A DNA stretch of 64,000 bases from Bacteroidota bacterium (GTDB taxonomy: Bacteria; Bacteroidota; Bacteroidia; Palsa-965): NCBI GenBank assembly GCA_016194975.1, contig JACQAM010000007.1, positions 1 to 64,000 on the forward strand. Direction: 5' to 3'. The stretch's first letter is position 1; the number at the start of each line of letters is the position of its first letter. Of this stretch, positions 13,019 to 50,340 are shown piece by piece. Both the position numbers and the translations under genes were made by a program. The notes beneath the pieces were generated by a model. It searched no databases and was not told where the DNA came from. It was given only the letters and a program-made list of their open reading frames with translations.

Positions 13019-16000
13019 ATGATTCGATTTTTTCCGAAAAAATTTTTCCGTTTACTGATCACGGCATTTATTTATATGCAGTGCGGGATTTTTCTTGGCG
13101 CCCAGGATTACAAATTTTCCCATCTTACGCTCGAGAACGGACTTTCTCAATCGGTAGTGAACTGCATTCTCCAGGACTCTCGCGGGTTCATGTGGTTCGG
13201 CACGCAGGAAGGATTGAACCGTTACGACGGTTATAATTTTCTTGTTTACAAACGCGATCCCGACAATAAAAATTCGCTTTCGAATAATTTCATCTATTCC
13301 ATTTGCGAATCTTCGAACGGGGTCATCTGGATCGGCACGAATGGCGGCGGGCTCGATGCATTCGATCCTTACACGGAAAAATTCACGCATTATGTGAATG
13401 ACCCGAAGAATCAGAATTCACTGAGCAATGATATTGTTCACGTAATTCACGAAACGAAAGACGGAAAAATATGGGCCGGAACCGAGAATGGACTGAATGC
13501 TTTTGATCCTTCCACAAAAAAATTCACACGCTACTTTTCCAATTTTTCCGGTGAAGGAACCATCAGCTCCGATAAAATTTATGACCTCGCCGAAGATGAA
13601 AAAGGAAATCTCTGGATCGGTACTTACGGGAAAAATATTTCCATGTTCGATGCTTCTTCGAATAGATTTTACAATTATGATCTTTCTGATGATGCACTCG
13701 GAAAACTTTATTCGGGACACATTCTTCTTGATGACAAAAGAAAACAGCAATGCCGCCAGGTGCGAAGCATGCTCATGTATGATAAAAAACACATGTGGAT
13801 AGGCACGAATGGCGGCGGCGTACAGATCTTCAATACAGAAACACATTCTTACGAAAAAGCACTGATCCCTGATGGAACGCCGTTTACCATCTCCACGCTC
13901 CGCGTTCTTTCGATGGCCGGTGATGGCAATGGAAATATCTGGCTTGGAGCTTATGATAGTGGTGTTGACGTGTTCAATAAAAGCGATGGAACTTTTCAGC
14001 ATTACACACCGAATGAAAATGATTTTTTTGCAGTAAAATCTTCCACCATCAAATGTGTTTTTGAAGATCGCGACGGAAATATGTGGCTCGGCACAAGCGG
14101 CGAAGGGTTGAATGTTTATTTCCGTTCCACTTCGCAGATAGGCCATATCCGGAAATCAGAACGGCCCGGTGTCGGGAACAACACGCTCATGAGCAATAAA
14201 ATTCAATGTGTGATGGAAGATTTCAGCGGATTGTTGTGGATCGGAACGAGCGAAGGCGGACTCACTACTCTCGACCGTGCGACGAATACTTACACGCAGC
14301 ATCCTGAACTTTCTACTGCAACGAACAACAGTATTCTTTCATTGCTGCAGGCAAGCGACAGTACGATCTGGGTGGGAACTTATGGAGAAGGGCTCAATCA
14401 TTATTTTCCGCGAACAAATAAGATCGTCTCTTATTCGCCGAAAAACCGGTTGCAGGAAGGATCCATTCTTTGCATCGCAGAAGAACCGGGAACCGGCGCG
14501 ATATGGTTCGGAACTTTCGGTGCGGGAATTTATCGTCTCGATCCGAAAACAGATTCATTGCAGGAATTCACAGCAGAACATGATTCGCTGAGTGTCGATT
14601 ATATTTTCGGTTTGTATTTCGATAAGCGCGGAGATCTATGGGTAGGCACGCGCGCAGGTGGTGTGATGGTGCGCCCGCGCGGAACAAATAAATTCATAAG
14701 CTACCAGCACGATGATAACGACCGGTCTTCCATTTCAAATAATATCGTTTACAATATTGCGGAAGATAATTCGGGCCACTTGTGGATGAGTACTGCGAAT
14801 GGAATTGACGAATTCGATCCGGCCACAAAAAAATTCCGGACCTGGTATGAACGCGATGGTTTGCCGAGTGATAATATTTATGCAGTGGTCATTGATCCGA
14901 ATGGAAATCTGTGGCTCAGCCACAATAAAGGCATCACTCGTTTTTCCCCTTCTAAAACCGGTGATGAAATGTTCCGCAATTTCGGCCCTGCTGCAGGAGT
15001 GCAGACCGCGGAATTCAATCAGGGCGCTTATTTTCAGAATAAGAAAGGAGAAATATTTTTTGGCGGACAGGGCGGATTGAATATCATTGATATCCGTACG
15101 GCTGATTCGAAATCTCCTCCGCCTCCCGTTTTTATTATTTCATACAAACGTTTCGGAAAAGAGATCCGTCTCGATACGGTGATCACCGATACTAAACTGA
15201 TCAGCGTAGGATGGCGCGATAATAATTTTCAATTCGAACTTTCAGCTCTCGATTATGTGGATCCCACAAAAAATCTTTACCGGTATCGTCTTGAAGGAGC
15301 CGATGAAGAATGGTCGCCTGCCACTACAAATCGTTATGTGAGCTACACGAATCTTCCCGGGGGTGATTATGCGTTGTATGTGCGTGCGGCCGATAGCAAT
15401 GGAAATTGGAGCAATGAAAAATTATTAGTGCGCATTCATGTAGAACCTCCTTTCTGGAAAACTAATTGGTTTTACACTTTATGCGTTTTAGTTATCATCA
15501 CTGGATTTTTCGGATTTGTACGTTACCGGACAGCCGCTATCAAAAAAGAGAACAGGATACTCGAAACAAAAGTGGCGGAGCGCACGCAGGAACTTGCACA
15601 GAAAAATGCAGACATCACTGCAAGTATTCAATACGCAAGAAGAATCCAGTCGGCCATGTTGCCCGATCTTAATCTTATCTACTCGCATTTCCCGGAAAGT
15701 TTTGTAGTGTATAAACCAAAAGATATTGTGAGCGGAGATTTTTACTGGTTCGGTGAGCGAAAAGGAAAATGTGTTATGGCTGTTGCCGATTGCACCGGTC
15801 ACGGAGTTCCGGGTGCGCTCATGAGTATGATAGGCCACGATCTGCTTAACCAGATCGTTCTTGAAAAAGGAATCGATGATCCGGGAACAATTCTCGACCG
15901 GCTGAATGAAGGCGTAAGGGCAGCATTGAAACAAGACCAGCATGACCAGGATACGGCAGACGGAATGGACATTGCTGTTTGCGTTATCGACAGATCGAAA

Positions 16001-16366
16001 CATGAAGTGAATTTTGCCGGTGCGCTTAGGCCGCTTATTGTTATACGCAACGGATTGCTCAGTAAAATTGACAGTGACCGTTTTCCTATTGGGGGAACGC
16101 ACGACACGCGTGATAAAAAATTCACCACGCATCGTTTTAAATTTGACAAAGGAGATACGATCTATATGTTCTCCGATGGATTCGCAGATCAGTTCGGGGG
16201 CGAACGCGGAAAAAAATTCATGATGAAACGGCTCCTTGAAAAACTGGTGGAAGTACATGTGTTGCCTATGACCGAACAAGCGTCGCTGATTGAAAATACT
16301 TTTGACAAATGGAAAGAAGGATTTCAGCAGGTGGATGATGTTCTCATTGCAGGAATCCGCATCTGA
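13019..16366 (+). CDS. Periplasmic propeller sensor fused to SpoIIE/PP2C phosphatase
   Basis: The 1115-residue protein begins with a signal-peptide/anchor segment (about 1-28). Residues about 35-690 are a long series of two-component-regulator propeller repeats (DSRGFMWFGTQEGLNRYDG, GVIWIGTNGGGLDAFDP, GKIWAGTENGLNAFDP), enough for two seven-bladed propellers. A Y_Y_Y domain follows at about 740-800 (YRYRLEGADEEW), then a membrane helix at about 813-835 and a coiled coil (VAERTQELAQKNADITASIQYARRIQ). The C-terminal PP2C-type Ser/Thr phosphatase (about 895-1115) has DFYWF, ADCTGHG (Asp924), DGMDIAVCVID and FSDGFADQFGG, so the metal-binding Asp residues are intact. It would sense periplasmic ligands and dephosphorylate a cytoplasmic phosphoprotein. 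The nearby SiaC-family protein is the obvious candidate substrate (inference). Confidence 0.92.
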   Translation: MIRFFPKKFFRLLITAFIYMQCGIFLGAQDYKFSHLTLENGLSQSVVNCILQDSRGFMWFGTQEGLNRYDGYNFLVYKRDPDNKNSLSNNFIYSICESSNGVIWIGTNGGGLDAFDPYTEKFTHYVNDPKNQNSLSNDIVHVIHETKDGKIWAGTENGLNAFDPSTKKFTRYFSNFSGEGTISSDKIYDLAEDEKGNLWIGTYGKNISMFDASSNRFYNYDLSDDALGKLYSGHILLDDKRKQQCRQVRSMLMYDKKHMWIGTNGGGVQIFNTETHSYEKALIPDGTPFTISTLRVLSMAGDGNGNIWLGAYDSGVDVFNKSDGTFQHYTPNENDFFAVKSSTIKCVFEDRDGNMWLGTSGEGLNVYFRSTSQIGHIRKSERPGVGNNTLMSNKIQCVMEDFSGLLWIGTSEGGLTTLDRATNTYTQHPELSTATNNSILSLLQASDSTIWVGTYGEGLNHYFPRTNKIVSYSPKNRLQEGSILCIAEEPGTGAIWFGTFGAGIYRLDPKTDSLQEFTAEHDSLSVDYIFGLYFDKRGDLWVGTRAGGVMVRPRGTNKFISYQHDDNDRSSISNNIVYNIAEDNSGHLWMSTANGIDEFDPATKKFRTWYERDGLPSDNIYAVVIDPNGNLWLSHNKGITRFSPSKTGDEMFRNFGPAAGVQTAEFNQGAYFQNKKGEIFFGGQGGLNIIDIRTADSKSPPPPVFIISYKRFGKEIRLDTVITDTKLISVGWRDNNFQFELSALDYVDPTKNLYRYRLEGADEEWSPATTNRYVSYTNLPGGDYALYVRAADSNGNWSNEKLLVRIHVEPPFWKTNWFYTLCVLVIITGFFGFVRYRTAAIKKENRILETKVAERTQELAQKNADITASIQYARRIQSAMLPDLNLIYSHFPESFVVYKPKDIVSGDFYWFGERKGKCVMAVADCTGHGVPGALMSMIGHDLLNQIVLEKGIDDPGTILDRLNEGVRAALKQDQHDQDTADGMDIAVCVIDRSKHEVNFAGALRPLIVIRNGLLSKIDSDRFPIGGTHDTRDKKFTTHRFKFDKGDTIYMFSDGFADQFGGERGKKFMMKRLLEKLVEVHVLPMTEQASLIENTFDKWKEGFQQVDDVLIAGIRI

Positions 16367-16413
16367 CGACCTCGTTTCGGCGCGTAAGATTGATCAAAAC
16401 CTTTTCATAAAAT

Positions 16414-16435
16414 AAGCGTAAAACGCTTAGCTTTG
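16414..16435 (+). promoter_or_regulatory. Promoter -7 box TAGCTTTG overlapped by an AAGCGT/ACGCTT dyad
   Basis: TAGCTTTG at 16428-16435 matches TAnnTTTG, the Bacteroidota -7 element, 58 bp upstream of the lipoprotein ATG. An inverted repeat, AAGCGT (16414-16419), AAA, ACGCTT (16423-16428), abuts it and shares the first T. A dyad in the -33/-7 spacer is a classic operator position for repression. Confidence 0.5.
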
Positions 16436-16492
16436 CATTAAACCTTCTGACAACCGGCATTGTCTTAAGTTCAACTCACAAAACCCGTTCAC

Positions 16493-17314
16493 ATGAAACG
16501 ATTTTTCACACCAGTACTTGTCGTATCAACTGTACTCGCAGTTGGAACAACGCTCTTCATCAACGGATGTAAAAAAACTCCGGTTGATACCGAAACCACT
16601 TCTGCAACTGACAATAACATTTGCGAAGGAGAATTCATGCGCATGCTCCCTGCTGTGAATAAAATAACTATAGATGAACCTGGCATGCACCGCGTGATAC
16701 AGGGCGCTTACGCTCAATCTTCCTGCCCTACTGTAACCGTGGATACCAACAATGGAGCATGGCCGCGCTACATGACCATTGATTACGGAACGGGTTGTAC
16801 AGATACGGTTGACGGAAAGATCCGCAAAGGAAAAATAAGAATGACCTTGTCTGATCCGTGGGATTACGTAGGAGCTATTGCTACTATGTCGCTCGATACT
16901 TTCTTTGTTGGTGCAATACAATATCAGGGAACTATCACGCTTACACGTACAGGTGTCAACTCCTGGCACAAAGTTGTTACCAATGGAAAATGCACGAAAG
17001 GAACCGACTGGACCATTCTTTTTGATTGCGATAGGAATATTACGTTCAGCTCGGGATCAACTGTTTCCACCGATCCGCAGATCATTACCATCACAGGATC
17101 TAATCACGGAACAGACCGCAATGGAAAAACATGGACTTCCACAATTACAAGTCCCATTGTGCGTGACCTGAGTTGTAGCTGGATCACCAAGGGAACTTTC
17201 GAATTGACTCCCGACGGAAAATCAACGCGAACAGTTGATTTCGGAAACGGCACCTGCGACAATAAAGGCACGATAAGCATAGACGGAAATACATTTGAAT
17301 TCACTATGAACTGA
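16493..17314 (+). CDS. Hypothetical lipoprotein in the Sia-like signalling cluster
   Basis: The 273-residue protein has a lipoprotein signal with lipobox Cys at residue 26 (LFINGC). The mature part is rich in Thr, Gly and paired short beta-strand patterns (TIDYGTGC, GKIRKGKIRMTLSDPW, TITLTRTGVNSWHKV, TFELTPDGKSTRTVDFGNGTC, GTISIDGNTFEFTMN), suggesting a beta-sandwich or barrel-like fold. Six or more Cys are present. I do not recognise a named family; similar proteins are annotated as hypothetical in Bacteroidota. It lies between the propeller phosphatase and the SiaB/SiaC pair, has its own promoter and is followed by a terminator. It is therefore an independent unit inside the cluster rather than a proven partner. 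Confidence 0.8.
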   Translation: MKRFFTPVLVVSTVLAVGTTLFINGCKKTPVDTETTSATDNNICEGEFMRMLPAVNKITIDEPGMHRVIQGAYAQSSCPTVTVDTNNGAWPRYMTIDYGTGCTDTVDGKIRKGKIRMTLSDPWDYVGAIATMSLDTFFVGAIQYQGTITLTRTGVNSWHKVVTNGKCTKGTDWTILFDCDRNITFSSGSTVSTDPQIITITGSNHGTDRNGKTWTSTITSPIVRDLSCSWITKGTFELTPDGKSTRTVDFGNGTCDNKGTISIDGNTFEFTMN

Positions 17315-17332
17315 TCAGAAAAATCAGGAAAG

Positions 17333-17359
17333 GCGGCTTCTTACCCATAGCCGCTTTTT
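17333..17359 (+). terminator. Rho-independent terminator after the lipoprotein gene
   Basis: Stem GCGGCT (17333-17338) and AGCCGC (17349-17354) with a 10-nt loop is followed directly by TTTTT, 19 bp after the stop codon. It separates the lipoprotein from siaB. Confidence 0.75.
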
Positions 17360-17419
17360 CTAACGATGATGAATACAAACACACACGCTCCCACTCTTAC
17401 TCTTGCTTCCCTTAGAGGA

Positions 17420-17450
17420 TTTGGTTTTTCCAAAACTCCCCCTATATTTG
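17420..17450 (+). promoter_or_regulatory. Promoter of the siaB-siaC operon
   Basis: TTTG at 17420-17423 and TATATTTG at 17443-17450 are separated by exactly 19 bp. This is a full match to the Bacteroidota -33 TTTG / -7 TAnnTTTG consensus. Transcription would start near 17455, giving a leader of about 60 nt before the ATG at 17515. Confidence 0.75.
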
Positions 17451-17514
17451 TCTTACCTGCCCCGCTGAAGCAAAGCGAAGGCAAAATTGTAACCCGAGAA
17501 ATCTCGTACCATTT

Positions 17515-18087
17515 ATGATGGTAGACATTTACGATTTTTACGATAAGATGGAGCGTAATAATATCATGCTCTCCTTCAAGGGCGATATTACCTCGGAGTT
17601 GCTTACTTCTATCCTGCAAATCATGGAATCCAAACTTGATACCATGCAGGAAGAACCCAAGATCAAGAAGAAAGTTTACAATGTGCTCGTTGAATGCCTG
17701 CAGAATCTTTATCACCACATGGATGAAATTCCGCGTTCACTCAACGGCACTTCAGTTACAACAGGCGACGGAGAAAATATCCGCTCTGCGATCTTCATGA
17801 TCGGTAAGATCGATAATCAATACAACATCATTACCGGAAATTATATTCTCGGCGATAACGTAGAAAAACTGAAATCAAGACTCGACGAGATCAACCGGCT
17901 TTCCAAAGAAGAACTCAAAGATTATTACAAAGCAGTACTGAATAACGGAGAAATGTCAGACAAAGGTGGCGGCGGATTGGGAATGATCGATATTGCACGC
18001 AAGACCGGTCAGAAACTTAATTATCATTTCATGCCGGTGGATGACACCTATTCTTTCTTCAGCCTGAATATTAAAATCGCACAATAA
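17515..18087 (+). CDS. siaB: SiaB-family protein kinase
   Basis: The 190-residue protein matches the SiaB family (DUF6272), GHKL-fold protein kinases that phosphorylate SiaC. The N-box region VYNVLVECLQNLYHH (about residues 57-71) and the glycine-rich GGGGLGMIDIARKTG (about 150-165) correspond to the ATP-binding boxes. In Pseudomonas, SiaB phosphorylates SiaC on a threonine and the SpoIIE phosphatase SiaA removes it (established for that system). Two adjacent in-frame ATGs (17515, 17518) begin the gene. It is followed after 24 bp by the SiaC gene and shares a promoter with it. There is no signal peptide, so it is cytoplasmic. Confidence 0.88.
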   Translation: MMVDIYDFYDKMERNNIMLSFKGDITSELLTSILQIMESKLDTMQEEPKIKKKVYNVLVECLQNLYHHMDEIPRSLNGTSVTTGDGENIRSAIFMIGKIDNQYNIITGNYILGDNVEKLKSRLDEINRLSKEELKDYYKAVLNNGEMSDKGGGGLGMIDIARKTGQKLNYHFMPVDDTYSFFSLNIKIAQ

Positions 18088-18111
18088 CACACATCATCAA
18101 TAATTACACTT

Positions 18112-18492
18112 ATGGAACGCATAGTCATCGAAGGCACCCCAAAAACACCGACCATCACTTTTGATATGTCGGCTGGAACTCTTGAAATCCGCGGACGCTC
18201 TATTCCGGAAAACTCCATCGAGTTTTACAAACCACTTGTAGAACAACTGGAACGCTATGCCGGCAAACCCCAGTCGAATACGAACGTGAATATTCAACTC
18301 GAATATTTCAATACAAGTTCTTCAAAATGTATTCTTGATGTTTTCAAGAAACTCGAAGCGATCCACAAAGGTGGAAGCGCTATCATCATCAACTGGTATT
18401 ATGAACAGGATGACGAGGATATGCTCGAAGCCGGCGAAGATTACCAGGCCATTATCAGCGTTCCTTTTAAAATGATAGAAGTGGCGGAATAA
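18112..18492 (+). CDS. siaC: SiaC-family regulatory phosphoprotein (DUF1987)
   Basis: The 126-residue protein matches the SiaC/DUF1987 family: IEGTPKTPTITFD and GTLEIRGRSIPENSIEFYKPL near the start, then LEYFNTSSSKCILDVFKKL. The threonine at residue 68, in YFNTSSSK, coincides in position with the Thr68 that I recall as the SiaB phosphorylation site of Pseudomonas SiaC. In that system unphosphorylated SiaC activates the diguanylate cyclase SiaD. No GGDEF protein was seen in this window, so the output here is unknown. The gene is in an operon with siaB and ends at a strong terminator. Confidence 0.9.
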   Translation: MERIVIEGTPKTPTITFDMSAGTLEIRGRSIPENSIEFYKPLVEQLERYAGKPQSNTNVNIQLEYFNTSSSKCILDVFKKLEAIHKGGSAIIINWYYEQDDEDMLEAGEDYQAIISVPFKMIEVAE

Positions 18493-18513: not shown

Positions 18514-18550
18514 AAACGGGCATTTCGGAAGAGATGCCCGTTTTTTTTAT
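18514..18550 (+). terminator. Rho-independent terminator after siaC
   Basis: A perfect 10-bp stem AAACGGGCAT (18514-18523) and ATGCCCGTTT (18534-18543) with a 10-nt loop is followed by a T-run to 18548. It closes the siaB-siaC operon. Confidence 0.9.
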
Positions 18551-18617
18551 CCATTCTGAAATGATGCTGATTTTTTTCAGAAAAAAACTGACCGTGATAA
18601 TTTTTTCCCCGGAAACT

Positions 18618-18648
18618 TTTGCATCGAAAACCTTTTTTCATAACTTTC
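18618..18648 (+). promoter_or_regulatory. Promoter of the kelch-like T9SS protein gene
   Basis: TTTG (18618-18621), a 19-bp spacer, then TAACTTTC (18641-18648), which is one mismatch from TAnnTTTG. It is 24 bp upstream of the ATG at 18672. This position also supports the inner start over the longer frame beginning at 18534, which would include the promoter and overlap the terminator. Confidence 0.55.
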
Positions 18649-18671
18649 ATTCACACCCAAACCCACTTCCC

Positions 18672-19880
18672 ATGAAAAAATTCTACGCACTTCTTTTTTT
18701 CTCGACCCTCATTTCTCTTGCGTATGCGCAGGGCACCTGGTTGCAGAAACTTGATTATGCAGGAGGCGGCCGCTATGGCGCTGCTGCTTTTTCCATTGGC
18801 AATATGGGATATGTAGGCACAGGATATGACGGCGTAACGTATCACCAGGATTTCTGGAAATACAACCAGGCGACAGATGCATGGACACAAATTGCAAGTT
18901 TGCCCGCAGCCGGGAGATTCGGTGGTGTTGCTTTTTCCATTGGTGCAAATGGCTATTTCGGCACAGGATACGACGGAACTTATTACAAAGATTTCTGGAA
19001 ATACGATACCACGGCAAACAACTGGTCGGCAAAAGCGAATTTCTCCGGAACTGCACGCTACATGTGCGTTGGATTTTCCATTGGTGCAAACGGATACATC
19101 GGAACTGGAAATGACGGCGTAGTGAAGCAGGATTTTTATAAATACGATACACTCGCGGATGCATGGACACCGAAAGCGAATTTTGGAGGAACAGCGCGAT
19201 ATGGTGCTGCAGGTTTTGCAATTGGTGGTAAAGGATATATCGGAACCGGTTTCGATGGCATCGTACCATTCACGCAGGATTTCTGGCGATATGATCCTGT
19301 TGCTGATTCCTGGTCGCCGCGTGCGACATTTGCCGGCGTCGCGAGATTTTATGCAACAGGTTTTTCTGTTGGTGCGCTCGGTTATATCGGAACAGGATTT
19401 GCGATGTCGGGTGACCGGCAGGATTTTTATGAATATCATCCTTCTACCGATTCATGGATGACGATGACAAATTTCCCCGGCTTACCTCGCCATTTGCCGG
19501 CCGGTTTTGGAACAACATCGAAAGGATACATCTGCACAGGATGGAACAGCACAGTTTATTTCCAGGATCACTATCAATTTACTCCCGACAGTTTGCCGCT
19601 GGCAATAAATTCAAATGAAAATAATTTCACAATGAATGTTTCGCCGGTTCCTGCGAACGAAAAAATTACGGTGAATATTTCCGGATCTTTTTTCAATGGC
19701 GCTTCTGCAAACAAAGGCGAAATTCTCATCTATGATCCGTGCGGAAAAGTGATCCTGCGTTCTGCTGTTCACGGAGAGAGAACGGAAATGGATATGACAC
19801 AACTTCAGAATGGAATTTATTTCGTGCGCGTGGAAACAAGCGCATACGCATGCGAAGAAAAAATAATGGTCTGTCATTAG
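18672..19880 (+). CDS. Secreted kelch-repeat beta-propeller protein with T9SS type A sorting domain
   Basis: The 402-residue protein from the ATG at 18672 has a typical signal peptide (MKKFYALLFFSTLISLAYAQ). Six near-identical kelch-like blades of about 50 residues follow, each reading like GRYGAAAFSIGNMGYVGTGYDG ... DFWKYNQATDAWTQ. Together they would form a six-bladed propeller spanning about residues 25-320. The C-terminus (NFTMNVSPVPANEKITVNIS ... LQNGIYFVRVETS) is a type A T9SS sorting domain, so the protein should reach the cell surface. Such propellers usually bind glycans or proteins; no galactose-oxidase catalytic residues can be pointed to. It follows the siaBC terminator and has its own promoter. 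Confidence 0.88.
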   Translation: MKKFYALLFFSTLISLAYAQGTWLQKLDYAGGGRYGAAAFSIGNMGYVGTGYDGVTYHQDFWKYNQATDAWTQIASLPAAGRFGGVAFSIGANGYFGTGYDGTYYKDFWKYDTTANNWSAKANFSGTARYMCVGFSIGANGYIGTGNDGVVKQDFYKYDTLADAWTPKANFGGTARYGAAGFAIGGKGYIGTGFDGIVPFTQDFWRYDPVADSWSPRATFAGVARFYATGFSVGALGYIGTGFAMSGDRQDFYEYHPSTDSWMTMTNFPGLPRHLPAGFGTTSKGYICTGWNSTVYFQDHYQFTPDSLPLAINSNENNFTMNVSPVPANEKITVNISGSFFNGASANKGEILIYDPCGKVILRSAVHGERTEMDMTQLQNGIYFVRVETSAYACEEKIMVCH

Positions 19881-47911: not shown

Positions 47912-50164
47912 CTATACTTTCACACCGATCAGTAATACATCATCCACCTGCTCGTAGTGTCTTTTCCATTCTGTGAATTTCTTTTCGAGAACTTTCCGTT
48001 GTTCCTCCAGAGGAAGCTCACTGCATTCTACAAGTAATTGCTGAAGTTGTTTGTATTTGATCTTTTTTCCTTTGGGCCCGCCAAACTGGTCGGCATATCC
48101 ATCGGTAAAAGTATAAATGAGATCGCCCGGCTCCAGCGGAATTTCATGATTTGTAAATGCCTGCAATTCGCCGGTATGTTTTCCTGCCGGAAAATGATCA
48201 GGGTTATACTCGACCAGTTTATTATTCCTGACAATATAAATTGCATTATTCGCACCCGCATATTCCATCGACATCCGGATAAGGTCCATGGAGCAAATGG
48301 AAATATCGAGCCCGTCGTTCGATTCTTCTTCCGCGTCTTCGGGGTTCAGCGAACGAATGATCTCCTCGCGCAGCATATCGAGGATCTGTGAAGGTGATTT
48401 TATTTTTTTCTCCACCACAATTTCATTCAGCAATGAAATACCGATCATGCTCATGAGCGCTCCGGGAACACCATGCCCTGTGCAATCGGCCGTAGCGAGT
48501 GTGATCTTTCCACTGCGTGATGCGAACATCCAGTAAAAATCGCCGCTCACAATATCTTTTGGCAGGTAAAGAATAAAATAATCCGGCAGATGTTTTTTCA
48601 TGTACCCTTCGGAAGTGAGCATGGCACGCTGAATTCTCCGCGCATAATTTATACTATCGGTAATGCTTTTATTTTTTTCATCGACGATCGCTTTCTGAGT
48701 TTCCACTTCATGAATTTGTTCAGCGATAATATTTTTTTGTTTACGCGTTACAGAAAAACGATTATAAAGGAAAACAGAAAATAAAAGCACGATGGCGAGT
48801 CCGCCGAACAAACCGTAACGCAGCATTTTTTCATTGCGGATCTGCACATCCTTCACTCGTTTTTCTTCTGTATTCCTCACACTATCGGCTGCCGCTTTTT
48901 TTTCGAATTCAAATTTCACCTGCTTGCGCGCAATTTCTTTTTGCTTTTCTACATCGGCAGCACTATCAAGAACAACCACGTAACGTTTGTAGGCAACGAA
49001 CGCATCATTCGTCCTGTTTTCTTTTTCATACAATTGACTGAGTGAAAGCAAAGCGTCCGATTCAATATGCCCGGCTTTTATTTCACCCGACTTTACCAAG
49101 GCAGTTTGCAGATTTTTTTCCGCCTCATCAAGCTTCGCAGTCGACATTTCTATGTTGCCTATATTAAGAAGTGAATTTGCAATTCCGTATTTGTCGCCTA
49201 TTTCTTCCACCAGTTCTAAATTTTTCTGCTGGCATTCGAGTGCTTTGGAATATTTTTCTGCGACCGTCACACCGAGATAAGCGCTTTGCGAATCGGGAAT
49301 GTTGGTGTAAATGTTGCCGATGTTTCCCCACGCAGTTGCAATTCCCTGCTTGTCGTTTATTTTTTCCCTGATCGCAAGACTGCGCTGCTGGTAATCGAGC
49401 GCCTTGAGAATTTTATTTCGCTGATCGAGTTTCATTGCCGCACACAAAGAATCCGGGAGATACTGGTAAACAAGTCCGAGATTTCCATACTCCACTGCAA
49501 TTCCTCTTTGATTTTTTAGCGAATCATAAAGGTGAAGACTGCGTGAATAATAATCCATGGCCCGCGAACAATCATCAGTATTCAAATAAATATTTCCGAT
49601 CTTATTCAACGTTCCTGCTTCACCGGGCCGGTCACGCGTTTCCTCTCTTATTTTCAGACTTTGTAACTGGTAATCGATCGCGCGCGGATAATCTGACAGG
49701 CGGAAATAATTATTTCCCAAATTGGCGAGCGCATCCGCTTCACCGAGACTATCGCCAATGCTGCGTGAAATGACCAGCGCTTTATTATGCGCCTCAATTG
49801 CTTCCGTGTATTTACCCAGTGTTTCAAGATTTACACCGAGTGCATTCAATCCACGCGCTTCACATACAGGAATTTTTTTCTTCACCGCTTCATTCAGAAC
49901 ACGGTTCGAATAAATACAACCGCTGTCGGGATCGGTTTGCTGCAATTGCTGTGCGAAATTTCCGAGTGCAGCAAGCCGTAAAGTATCGTTGAGTGAAGAA
50001 TTATTGTAGATGGTGTAAAGTGAATCGCGGGAACGAGGAAGCTGATACCTGAGAGAACCGCTTTTTTTAATCGTATCGGAATTTAATTTTCCATGGTCGC
50101 CTGCACACGCGGATAAAAACCATATTCCTGTAAAAAAAAGAAAAGTCCGCACTGAATTCTTCAT
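47912..50164 (-). CDS. TPR lipoprotein with transmembrane helix and SpoIIE/PP2C phosphatase domain
   Basis: From the ATG at 50162-50164 the protein has 750 residues; the longer upstream frame lacks a good signal. The leader ends at a lipobox Cys20 (IWFLSAC). Residues about 60-430 contain some nine TPR units (GLNALGVNLETLGKYTEAIEAHNKAL, EADALANLGNNYFRLSDYPRAIDYQLQSL), several carrying insertions. A membrane helix (YGLFGGLAIVLLFSVFLYNRF, about 480-500) is followed by a coiled coil (KSITDSINYARRIQRAML) and the PP2C domain with DFYWM, ADCTGHG (Asp560), DGLDISICSMD and FTDGYADQFGG, all metal-binding residues intact. The coiled-coil/phosphatase half closely resembles that of the propeller protein at 13019-16366. 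A lone receiver protein is encoded just upstream on the same strand. Confidence 0.92.
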   Translation of the reverse strand: MKNSVRTFLFFTGIWFLSACAGDHGKLNSDTIKKSGSLRYQLPRSRDSLYTIYNNSSLNDTLRLAALGNFAQQLQQTDPDSGCIYSNRVLNEAVKKKIPVCEARGLNALGVNLETLGKYTEAIEAHNKALVISRSIGDSLGEADALANLGNNYFRLSDYPRAIDYQLQSLKIREETRDRPGEAGTLNKIGNIYLNTDDCSRAMDYYSRSLHLYDSLKNQRGIAVEYGNLGLVYQYLPDSLCAAMKLDQRNKILKALDYQQRSLAIREKINDKQGIATAWGNIGNIYTNIPDSQSAYLGVTVAEKYSKALECQQKNLELVEEIGDKYGIANSLLNIGNIEMSTAKLDEAEKNLQTALVKSGEIKAGHIESDALLSLSQLYEKENRTNDAFVAYKRYVVVLDSAADVEKQKEIARKQVKFEFEKKAAADSVRNTEEKRVKDVQIRNEKMLRYGLFGGLAIVLLFSVFLYNRFSVTRKQKNIIAEQIHEVETQKAIVDEKNKSITDSINYARRIQRAMLTSEGYMKKHLPDYFILYLPKDIVSGDFYWMFASRSGKITLATADCTGHGVPGALMSMIGISLLNEIVVEKKIKSPSQILDMLREEIIRSLNPEDAEEESNDGLDISICSMDLIRMSMEYAGANNAIYIVRNNKLVEYNPDHFPAGKHTGELQAFTNHEIPLEPGDLIYTFTDGYADQFGGPKGKKIKYKQLQQLLVECSELPLEEQRKVLEKKFTEWKRHYEQVDDVLLIGVKV

Positions 50165-50340
50165 AGGGAGAAAGTGACCTTCGGGAGTTTTTTGAAAAGT
50201 ACAAAAAAATCGAGCGTTCTCACCTTCGCGTTCATCCAAAAGACAGCGAATAAAAGACAAAGAAAAATCAGTATCCGTTTCATCAGGGATGCAAATGAAA
50301 TTTACAACGCAACGGAATTTGCTTTCAACAGAAAAATTTG

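Follow-up and report, generated by a model that had tools for sequence, protein, structure and literature searches.

A c-di-GMP-free Sia phospho-switch in Bacteroidota with a propeller-type sensor phosphatase and a candidate ABC-2 exporter output

The window, a stretch of 64,000 nucleotides of contig JACQAM010000007.1 from a Bacteroidota genome (assembly GCA_016194975.1), carries a Sia-type phospho-switch consisting of a sensor phosphatase, a lipoprotein, a SiaB-family kinase, and SiaC, all four encoded by intact open reading frames (Table 1). We propose, with a probability of about 0.55, that this switch operates without cyclic diguanylate (c-di-GMP), takes its input from a propeller sensor, and gates an ABC-2 exporter whose regulatory module is TerB-FHA-like. 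The components, their motifs, the neighbourhood, the co-occurrence of switch and exporter, and a fusion of SiaC to the TerB-FHA module are established from sequence. In the proposed mechanism, the periplasmic double propeller would detect a signal from the envelope or outside and pass it via a single transmembrane (TM) helix to the cytosolic SpoIIE phosphatase. The SpoIIE domain would strip phosphate from Thr68 of SiaC, and the SiaB kinase would add it. SiaC would then control the exporter instead of a diguanylate cyclase, acting at the TerB- and FHA-like N-terminal half of the transporter.

The class sample comprises 59 genomes from 48 families, namely the window's genome (G000, 4.1 Mb, 99.8% complete) and 58 relatives, with one genome per family except in the window's own. 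The siaB neighbourhoods make up 118 loci after removal of duplicates, and counts taken from them are lower bounds, because contig ends cut many of the loci. The first-pass annotation had proposed that the diguanylate cyclase is replaced by another output, and that the genome be searched for GGDEF proteins. None was found in the window genome, so that it lacks a SiaD-type output, and none in the 59 genomes together, of which 43 carry SiaB (42 of the 58 relatives); control genomes gave the expected matches in the SiaB and GGDEF profile searches. The absence thus stands, while 'replaced' was too strong a word: because 0/59 genomes encode a GGDEF protein, the c-di-GMP-free form is the normal condition in the class and not a loss specific to this organism. 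The output itself is narrowed to an exporter candidate.

This candidate emerged from clustering all proteins encoded near siaB, in which an exporter of ~1030 amino acids (aa) was found in 29 loci. It combines a TerB region, an ABC ATPase (ABC_tran, PF00005, E 6e-30), and an ABC-2 membrane domain (ABC2_membrane, PF01061, E 2e-15) in one chain; its best NCBIfam match, the pigment precursor permease TIGR00955, falls well under the family cut-off. Exporter orthologues are present in 37/43 genomes with SiaB and 1/16 without (Fisher p 2e-8, uncorrected for kinship), which leaves 15 genomes with neither and six with SiaB only. Linkage, defined as a distance of at most 10 kb from a siaB, was seen for 19 of 48 exporter genes, compared with about 0.8 expected at random. 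Apart from the exporter, the same unbiased clustering yielded no candidate effector that is linked to each of the two SiaC sets described below. A 298-aa lipoprotein-like gene and a 144-aa secreted-like gene also recur near siaB, in 30 and 18 loci, respectively.

The association is found a second time in a divergent, paralogous SiaB/SiaC set, which clusters with SpoIIE and exporter genes in six genomes, one of them in the window's genus. With full support, the SiaC tree splits the divergent set from the main one, and the exporter tree places the exporters of the divergent set in one group, together with two unlinked exporters. Five of the clusters (L096, L124, L126, L127, and L128) run on the same strand in the order SpoIIE, SiaB (in some cases two), SiaC, exporter, and secreted proteins; L125 is partial, with its SpoIIE gene on the other strand. 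In L127 and L128, two or three tandem SpoIIE genes with different sensor parts precede two or three siaB genes, one siaC, and the exporter. CheR-like and CheB-like genes stand beside SpoIIE, next to siaB-siaC-exporter, in the divergent clusters L096, L124, L125, and L226.

Furthermore, in two species (L125 and L226) a protein encoded between siaC and the exporter fuses a TerB-FHA-like module to a SiaC domain. The two fusion proteins are 62% identical, match both the exporter module (E 4e-21) and SiaC (E 1e-28), and carry a threonine of their own in the fused SiaC domain. Structurally, an AlphaFold2 model of exporter residues 1-255 (predicted local distance difference test, pLDDT, 80) consists of seven helices followed by a beta domain. 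The helices resemble the TerB-like protein PG1108 (2h5n, Foldseek probability 0.97-0.98), and the structural neighbours of the module in the PDB include the FHA domains of EssC, Rad53, and DgcB, with probabilities of up to 1.00. An invariant serine and an Asn-Gly turn are recognisable in the module alignment. The exporter gave no FHA match in Pfam, and the module gave no match among PDB sequences. Because the exporter co-occurs with the switch and is partly fused to SiaC in two species, we consider it the likely target of the Sia switch. That SiaC binds it, with which sign it is controlled, and which cargo it moves are points that we infer.

The window genome encodes an intact exporter at C23:298127-301339. 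It is 71% identical over residues 1-826 to a siaB-linked exporter (L098) and nests in the tree among linked exporters of the same genus; by orthology, it would be the protein on which the window's SiaC acts. In one relative (G058, L138), a lipoprotein gene of the window's family adjoins the exporter and also ties the exporter half of the system to the half found in the window.

Several observations weigh against this proposal. Six genomes carry SiaB without an exporter at the cut-off used, and four of them are at least 90% complete. In most linked loci, the exporter and siaBC are convergent rather than joined in one operon, and in the window genome the exporter adjoins neither of the two siaBC pairs. 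Foldseek returned weak E-values for the TerB-FHA module (best 0.02) because the model was compared as a whole, and most of the residues that form the canonical FHA phosphothreonine pocket (Arg, His) could not be made out when the alignment was inspected by eye. Moreover, the genome has few SiaC for its 31 competing SpoIIE proteins, and both the binding of SiaC and its phosphorylation in this organism are predictions.

The sensor phosphatase had been described in the first-pass annotation as a giant periplasmic propeller/Y_Y_Y protein ending in an intact SpoIIE/PP2C domain, a propeller taking the place of the HAMP sensor. Both points hold. Profile searches return Reg_prop (5e-62), Y_Y_Y (2e-18), and SpoIIE (9e-22), and residues 28-815 align over their full length with the ectodomain structures of Bacteroides two-component sensors (4a2l, E 1.7e-94; 3v9f, E 1e-89), a homology that supports the term double propeller. 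There is one TM peak at residues 816-834 and a signal-like peak at residues 9-27. The last 280 residues match the SiaA-PP2C structure 6k4e (E 4.8e-40) and include the PP2C aspartate motifs SGDF905, ADCTGHG923, SDGF1052, and DDVL1106. Beyond the TM helix the protein carries SpoIIE only, without a histidine kinase or response regulator. It scores 210.7 bits against the SiaA equivalog NF038263 (cut-off 700), through its phosphatase half only.

The kinase and SiaC are likewise what they had been taken for. SiaB exceeds the cut-off of the kinase family NF038262 (SiaB_fam_kinase; 165.1 bits, cut-off 85), remains under that of the SiaB equivalog NF038264 (87.8 bits, cut-off 225), and matches SiaB in the PDB (6kko_A, E 7e-13). 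Its Glu60 and Asn64 are invariant among 12 relatives, and Glu60 aligns with Glu61, the predicted catalytic glutamate of Pseudomonas SiaB (PMC7647112). SiaC reaches 150.4 bits with PF09345 (cut-off 24.5) and 99.9 bits with the equivalog NF038265 (cut-off 150). Its Thr68 is in register with the phospho-threonine of the Pseudomonas NTSS motif, the equivalent residue on which kinase and phosphatase act there (PMC7647112). In Pseudomonas, unphosphorylated SiaC is the active binder and phosphorylation abolishes partner binding (PMC8457831); by analogy, the same chemistry would apply to Thr68.

Table 1 Features of the Sia locus in the window.
Position	Strand	Feature	Basis or conservation
13019..16366	+	SiaA-like sensor phosphatase, 1115 aa	profile, PDB, and TM evidence
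within 13019..16366	+	signal peptide; two Reg_prop propellers, aa 28-about 740	
within 13019..16366	+	Y_Y_Y, aa 745-808; single TM helix, aa 816-834; then coiled coil	
15764..16363	+	SpoIIE/PP2C domain, cytosolic, aa 916-1113, metal-binding Asp motifs complete	
16413..16429	.	7-bp perfect inverted repeat, TAAGCGT-AAA-ACGCTTA	
16428..16435	+	Bacteroidota-type -7 promoter element TAGCTTTG, lipoprotein gene	position conserved in 5/6 loci
16493..17314	+	predicted lipoprotein (Cys26), all-beta, conserved siaBC partner	
17330..17358	+	terminator-like hairpin GCGGCT...AGCCGC-TTTTT, 3' of lipoprotein gene	by eye; loop too long for scan
17443..17450	+	-7 promoter element TATATTTG, siaBC	conserved upstream of siaB
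17515..18087	+	SiaB-family kinase (PF19788, NF038262), Glu60 and Asn64 invariant	Pfam, NCBIfam, PDB
18112..18492	+	SiaC (PF09345)	Pfam, NCBIfam, alignment
18313..18315	+	codon of SiaC Thr68, predicted phosphorylation site	alignment
18514..18543	+	intrinsic terminator, 13-bp stem and T run, 3' of siaC	

The neighbourhood of these genes is conserved in relatives, whereas its absence had been named beforehand as a reason to abandon the idea. siaC follows siaB in 112/118 loci (median gap 13.5 bases), 56 siaB genes have SpoIIE upstream, which is of the propeller type in 43 cases, and the order propeller-SpoIIE, lipoprotein, siaB, siaC is found in dozens of loci. The lipoprotein had been suggested as a member of the set, and its family indeed occurs in 53 of the 118 loci, always immediately upstream of siaB. 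Pfam and NCBIfam searches assigned it to no family, and its all-beta structure model (pLDDT 87) found a best PDB fold match with a probability of only 0.21. Cys26 is invariant in 24 sequences, as are Cys228 and Cys255. The lipoprotein may assist either the sensing or the export arm at the envelope.

Two regulatory elements had been proposed for the lipoprotein gene, and only one was retained. Its own promoter, a TAnnTTTG element at about -65, is kept in 5/6 loci of the genus or family, but the operator-like dyad occurs in the window only, being absent in 5/5 relatives, and is probably not an operator of the Sia locus. A TAnnTTTG element also precedes siaB in 10/10 genus or family loci. Since siaBC and the lipoprotein gene each have their own promoter of this type, the window locus appears to be divided into three transcription units; a single operon running from the phosphatase gene through the lipoprotein gene to siaBC is not supported, given the separate promoters and the terminator-like hairpin. 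The kelch protein encoded at 18534-19880 was rejected as a component, as a strong terminator lies between and it is not a recurrent neighbour. The longest-frame start of this gene falls inside the siaC terminator, and translation probably starts near 18672 instead.

The assignment of the phosphatase faces the most serious alternative, in which the propeller-SpoIIE protein acts on another protein and is a mere neighbour, while among the other 30 SpoIIE proteins one or more would dephosphorylate SiaC. Profile searches of the window genome returned 31 SpoIIE proteins, four SiaC, two SiaB, two STAS proteins, and one clear RsbW-like ATPase, so that phosphatases far outnumber the candidate substrates. 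The SiaA model ranks the window's SpoIIE third and is uninformative for choosing a cognate phosphatase, as two others outrank it. Many siaBC loci have no adjoining SpoIIE, and the propeller-SpoIIE gene occupies its own transcription unit. With 31 candidates and a third rank, sequence similarity alone cannot pick this protein; it is singled out because its neighbourhood is conserved. Across families, no other type of SpoIIE stands beside the main siaBC as often as the propeller type (the 43 siaB genes above), and SpoIIE adjoins siaB-siaC in the divergent clusters as well. We therefore regard service by another phosphatase as unlikely, and the propeller-SpoIIE protein as the presumed phosphatase of SiaC.

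A second alternative accepts the switch but gives it a transcriptional output, with SiaC controlling an extracytoplasmic function (ECF) sigma factor/anti-sigma pair or some other partner and the exporter being a mere frequent neighbour. The STAS-like fold of SiaC, as in anti-sigma antagonists (PMC7647112), fits this idea, as does the recurrence of an ECF-sigma family near siaBC in 15 loci. The second siaB-siaC pair of the window genome (L037:7500-8437, C23:199517), whose SiaC reads NTGS at the threonine, is moreover convergent with ECF-like sigma and zinc-finger anti-sigma genes. However, the ECF genes by the main siaBC lie mostly ~3 kb downstream, behind the aldolase and accD genes, in one locus group, and no fusion of SiaC to a sigma or anti-sigma factor was seen, whereas SiaC is fused to the exporter module. 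A transcriptional output thus appears distinctly improbable compared with control of the exporter.

That only SiaB and SiaC are functionally linked and the rest is ordinary inherited synteny seems least credible of all: the main clade does hold most linked exporters, and housekeeping methyltransferase and ZIP transporter genes are found next to the main locus almost as often (45 and 39 loci), but neither ever shares its strand or occurs in the divergent clusters, in which SpoIIE and exporter recur, and synteny explains neither the presence/absence pattern nor the fusion protein. The methyltransferase and ZIP genes were accordingly set aside as partners. The recurrent downstream genes for 351- and 281-aa proteins were dismissed as outputs, as they encode an aldolase (DeoC/LacD) and a carboxyl transferase subunit and likewise do not reappear in the divergent clusters; all four are probably mere neighbours.

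Further Sia-related genes lie elsewhere in the window and its genome. Two orphan SiaC genes without SiaB keep the threonine (L038:7536-7910, NTAT; L039:7538-7933, NTLS), the former standing after a gene for an FG-GAP protein of 1052 aa that ends in a type IX secretion sorting tail. The window itself encodes a second SpoIIE-ended protein (47912-50260, minus strand) with no adjoining siaB or siaC. A SpoIIE match near C5:78072 (L040) lies in a listed frame of 24677 aa, which is not a real giant gene because the frame enters masked N.

To our knowledge, the Sia pathway has so far been known only as a regulator of diguanylate cyclase. In the present switch the sensor is new, and so, as proposed, is the kind of effector. 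What the widespread SiaC (DUF1987) does outside the diguanylate cyclase setting has been raised as a question (PMC8457831), and an ABC-2 exporter with a TerB-FHA-like regulatory module is a concrete candidate effector for a large c-di-GMP-free group. The natural SiaC fusion makes binding of SiaC to its effector directly testable, and with 31 SpoIIE phosphatases and few known substrates in one genome, the question of their targets can now be asked. We tentatively extend the proposal, at slightly less than even odds, to Bacteroidota as a whole, where Sia would be a phospho-switch that directly gates an exporter and exchangeable sensor phosphatases (propeller, PAS/GAF/HAMP, and others) would funnel many signals onto few SiaC. 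Our literature search found no paper on Bacteroidota SiaC, DUF6272, or TerB-FHA exporters, subscription papers and preprints being outside its coverage; in the Bacteroidetes papers covered, 'SiaC' mainly denotes a Capnocytophaga sialidase.

In partner switches of the RsbU/RsbV/RsbW type, a SpoIIE phosphatase opposes a small kinase on a STAS-like protein. HsbA and BgrV are further SpoIIE-STAS examples (cited in PMC8457831). In the window, the SiaB and SiaC families replace RsbW and RsbV, and a sigma factor output is considered improbable. The closest known system is SiaABCD of Pseudomonas aeruginosa (PMC7647112, PMC8457831), with which the locus shares the SpoIIE/PP2C phosphatase, SiaB, the phospho-threonine of SiaC in register, and conserved catalytic residues, although its proteins score under the SiaA, SiaB, and SiaC equivalog cut-offs. 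It differs in having a double propeller instead of the SiaA sensor, an added lipoprotein, separate transcription units, and neither SiaD nor any GGDEF protein, with the exporter as candidate output. The Bacteroides hybrid two-component systems (4a2l, 3v9f, and 3ott ectodomains) likewise present a periplasmic double propeller, Y_Y_Y, and one TM helix; here, the SpoIIE serine/threonine phosphatase replaces the histidine kinase/response regulator, which joins a classic carbohydrate-sensor ectodomain to Ser/Thr dephosphorylation. On the output side, Rv1747/PknF of Mycobacterium tuberculosis offers a possible parallel at the domain level, an FHA-bearing ABC exporter under Ser/Thr phosphorylation whose control partner binds the FHA domain (PMC5549992, PMC3908365). 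In contrast to Rv1747, the exporter described here combines TerB with one FHA-like domain, and a SiaB/SiaC/SpoIIE switch stands in place of the eukaryote-like kinase.

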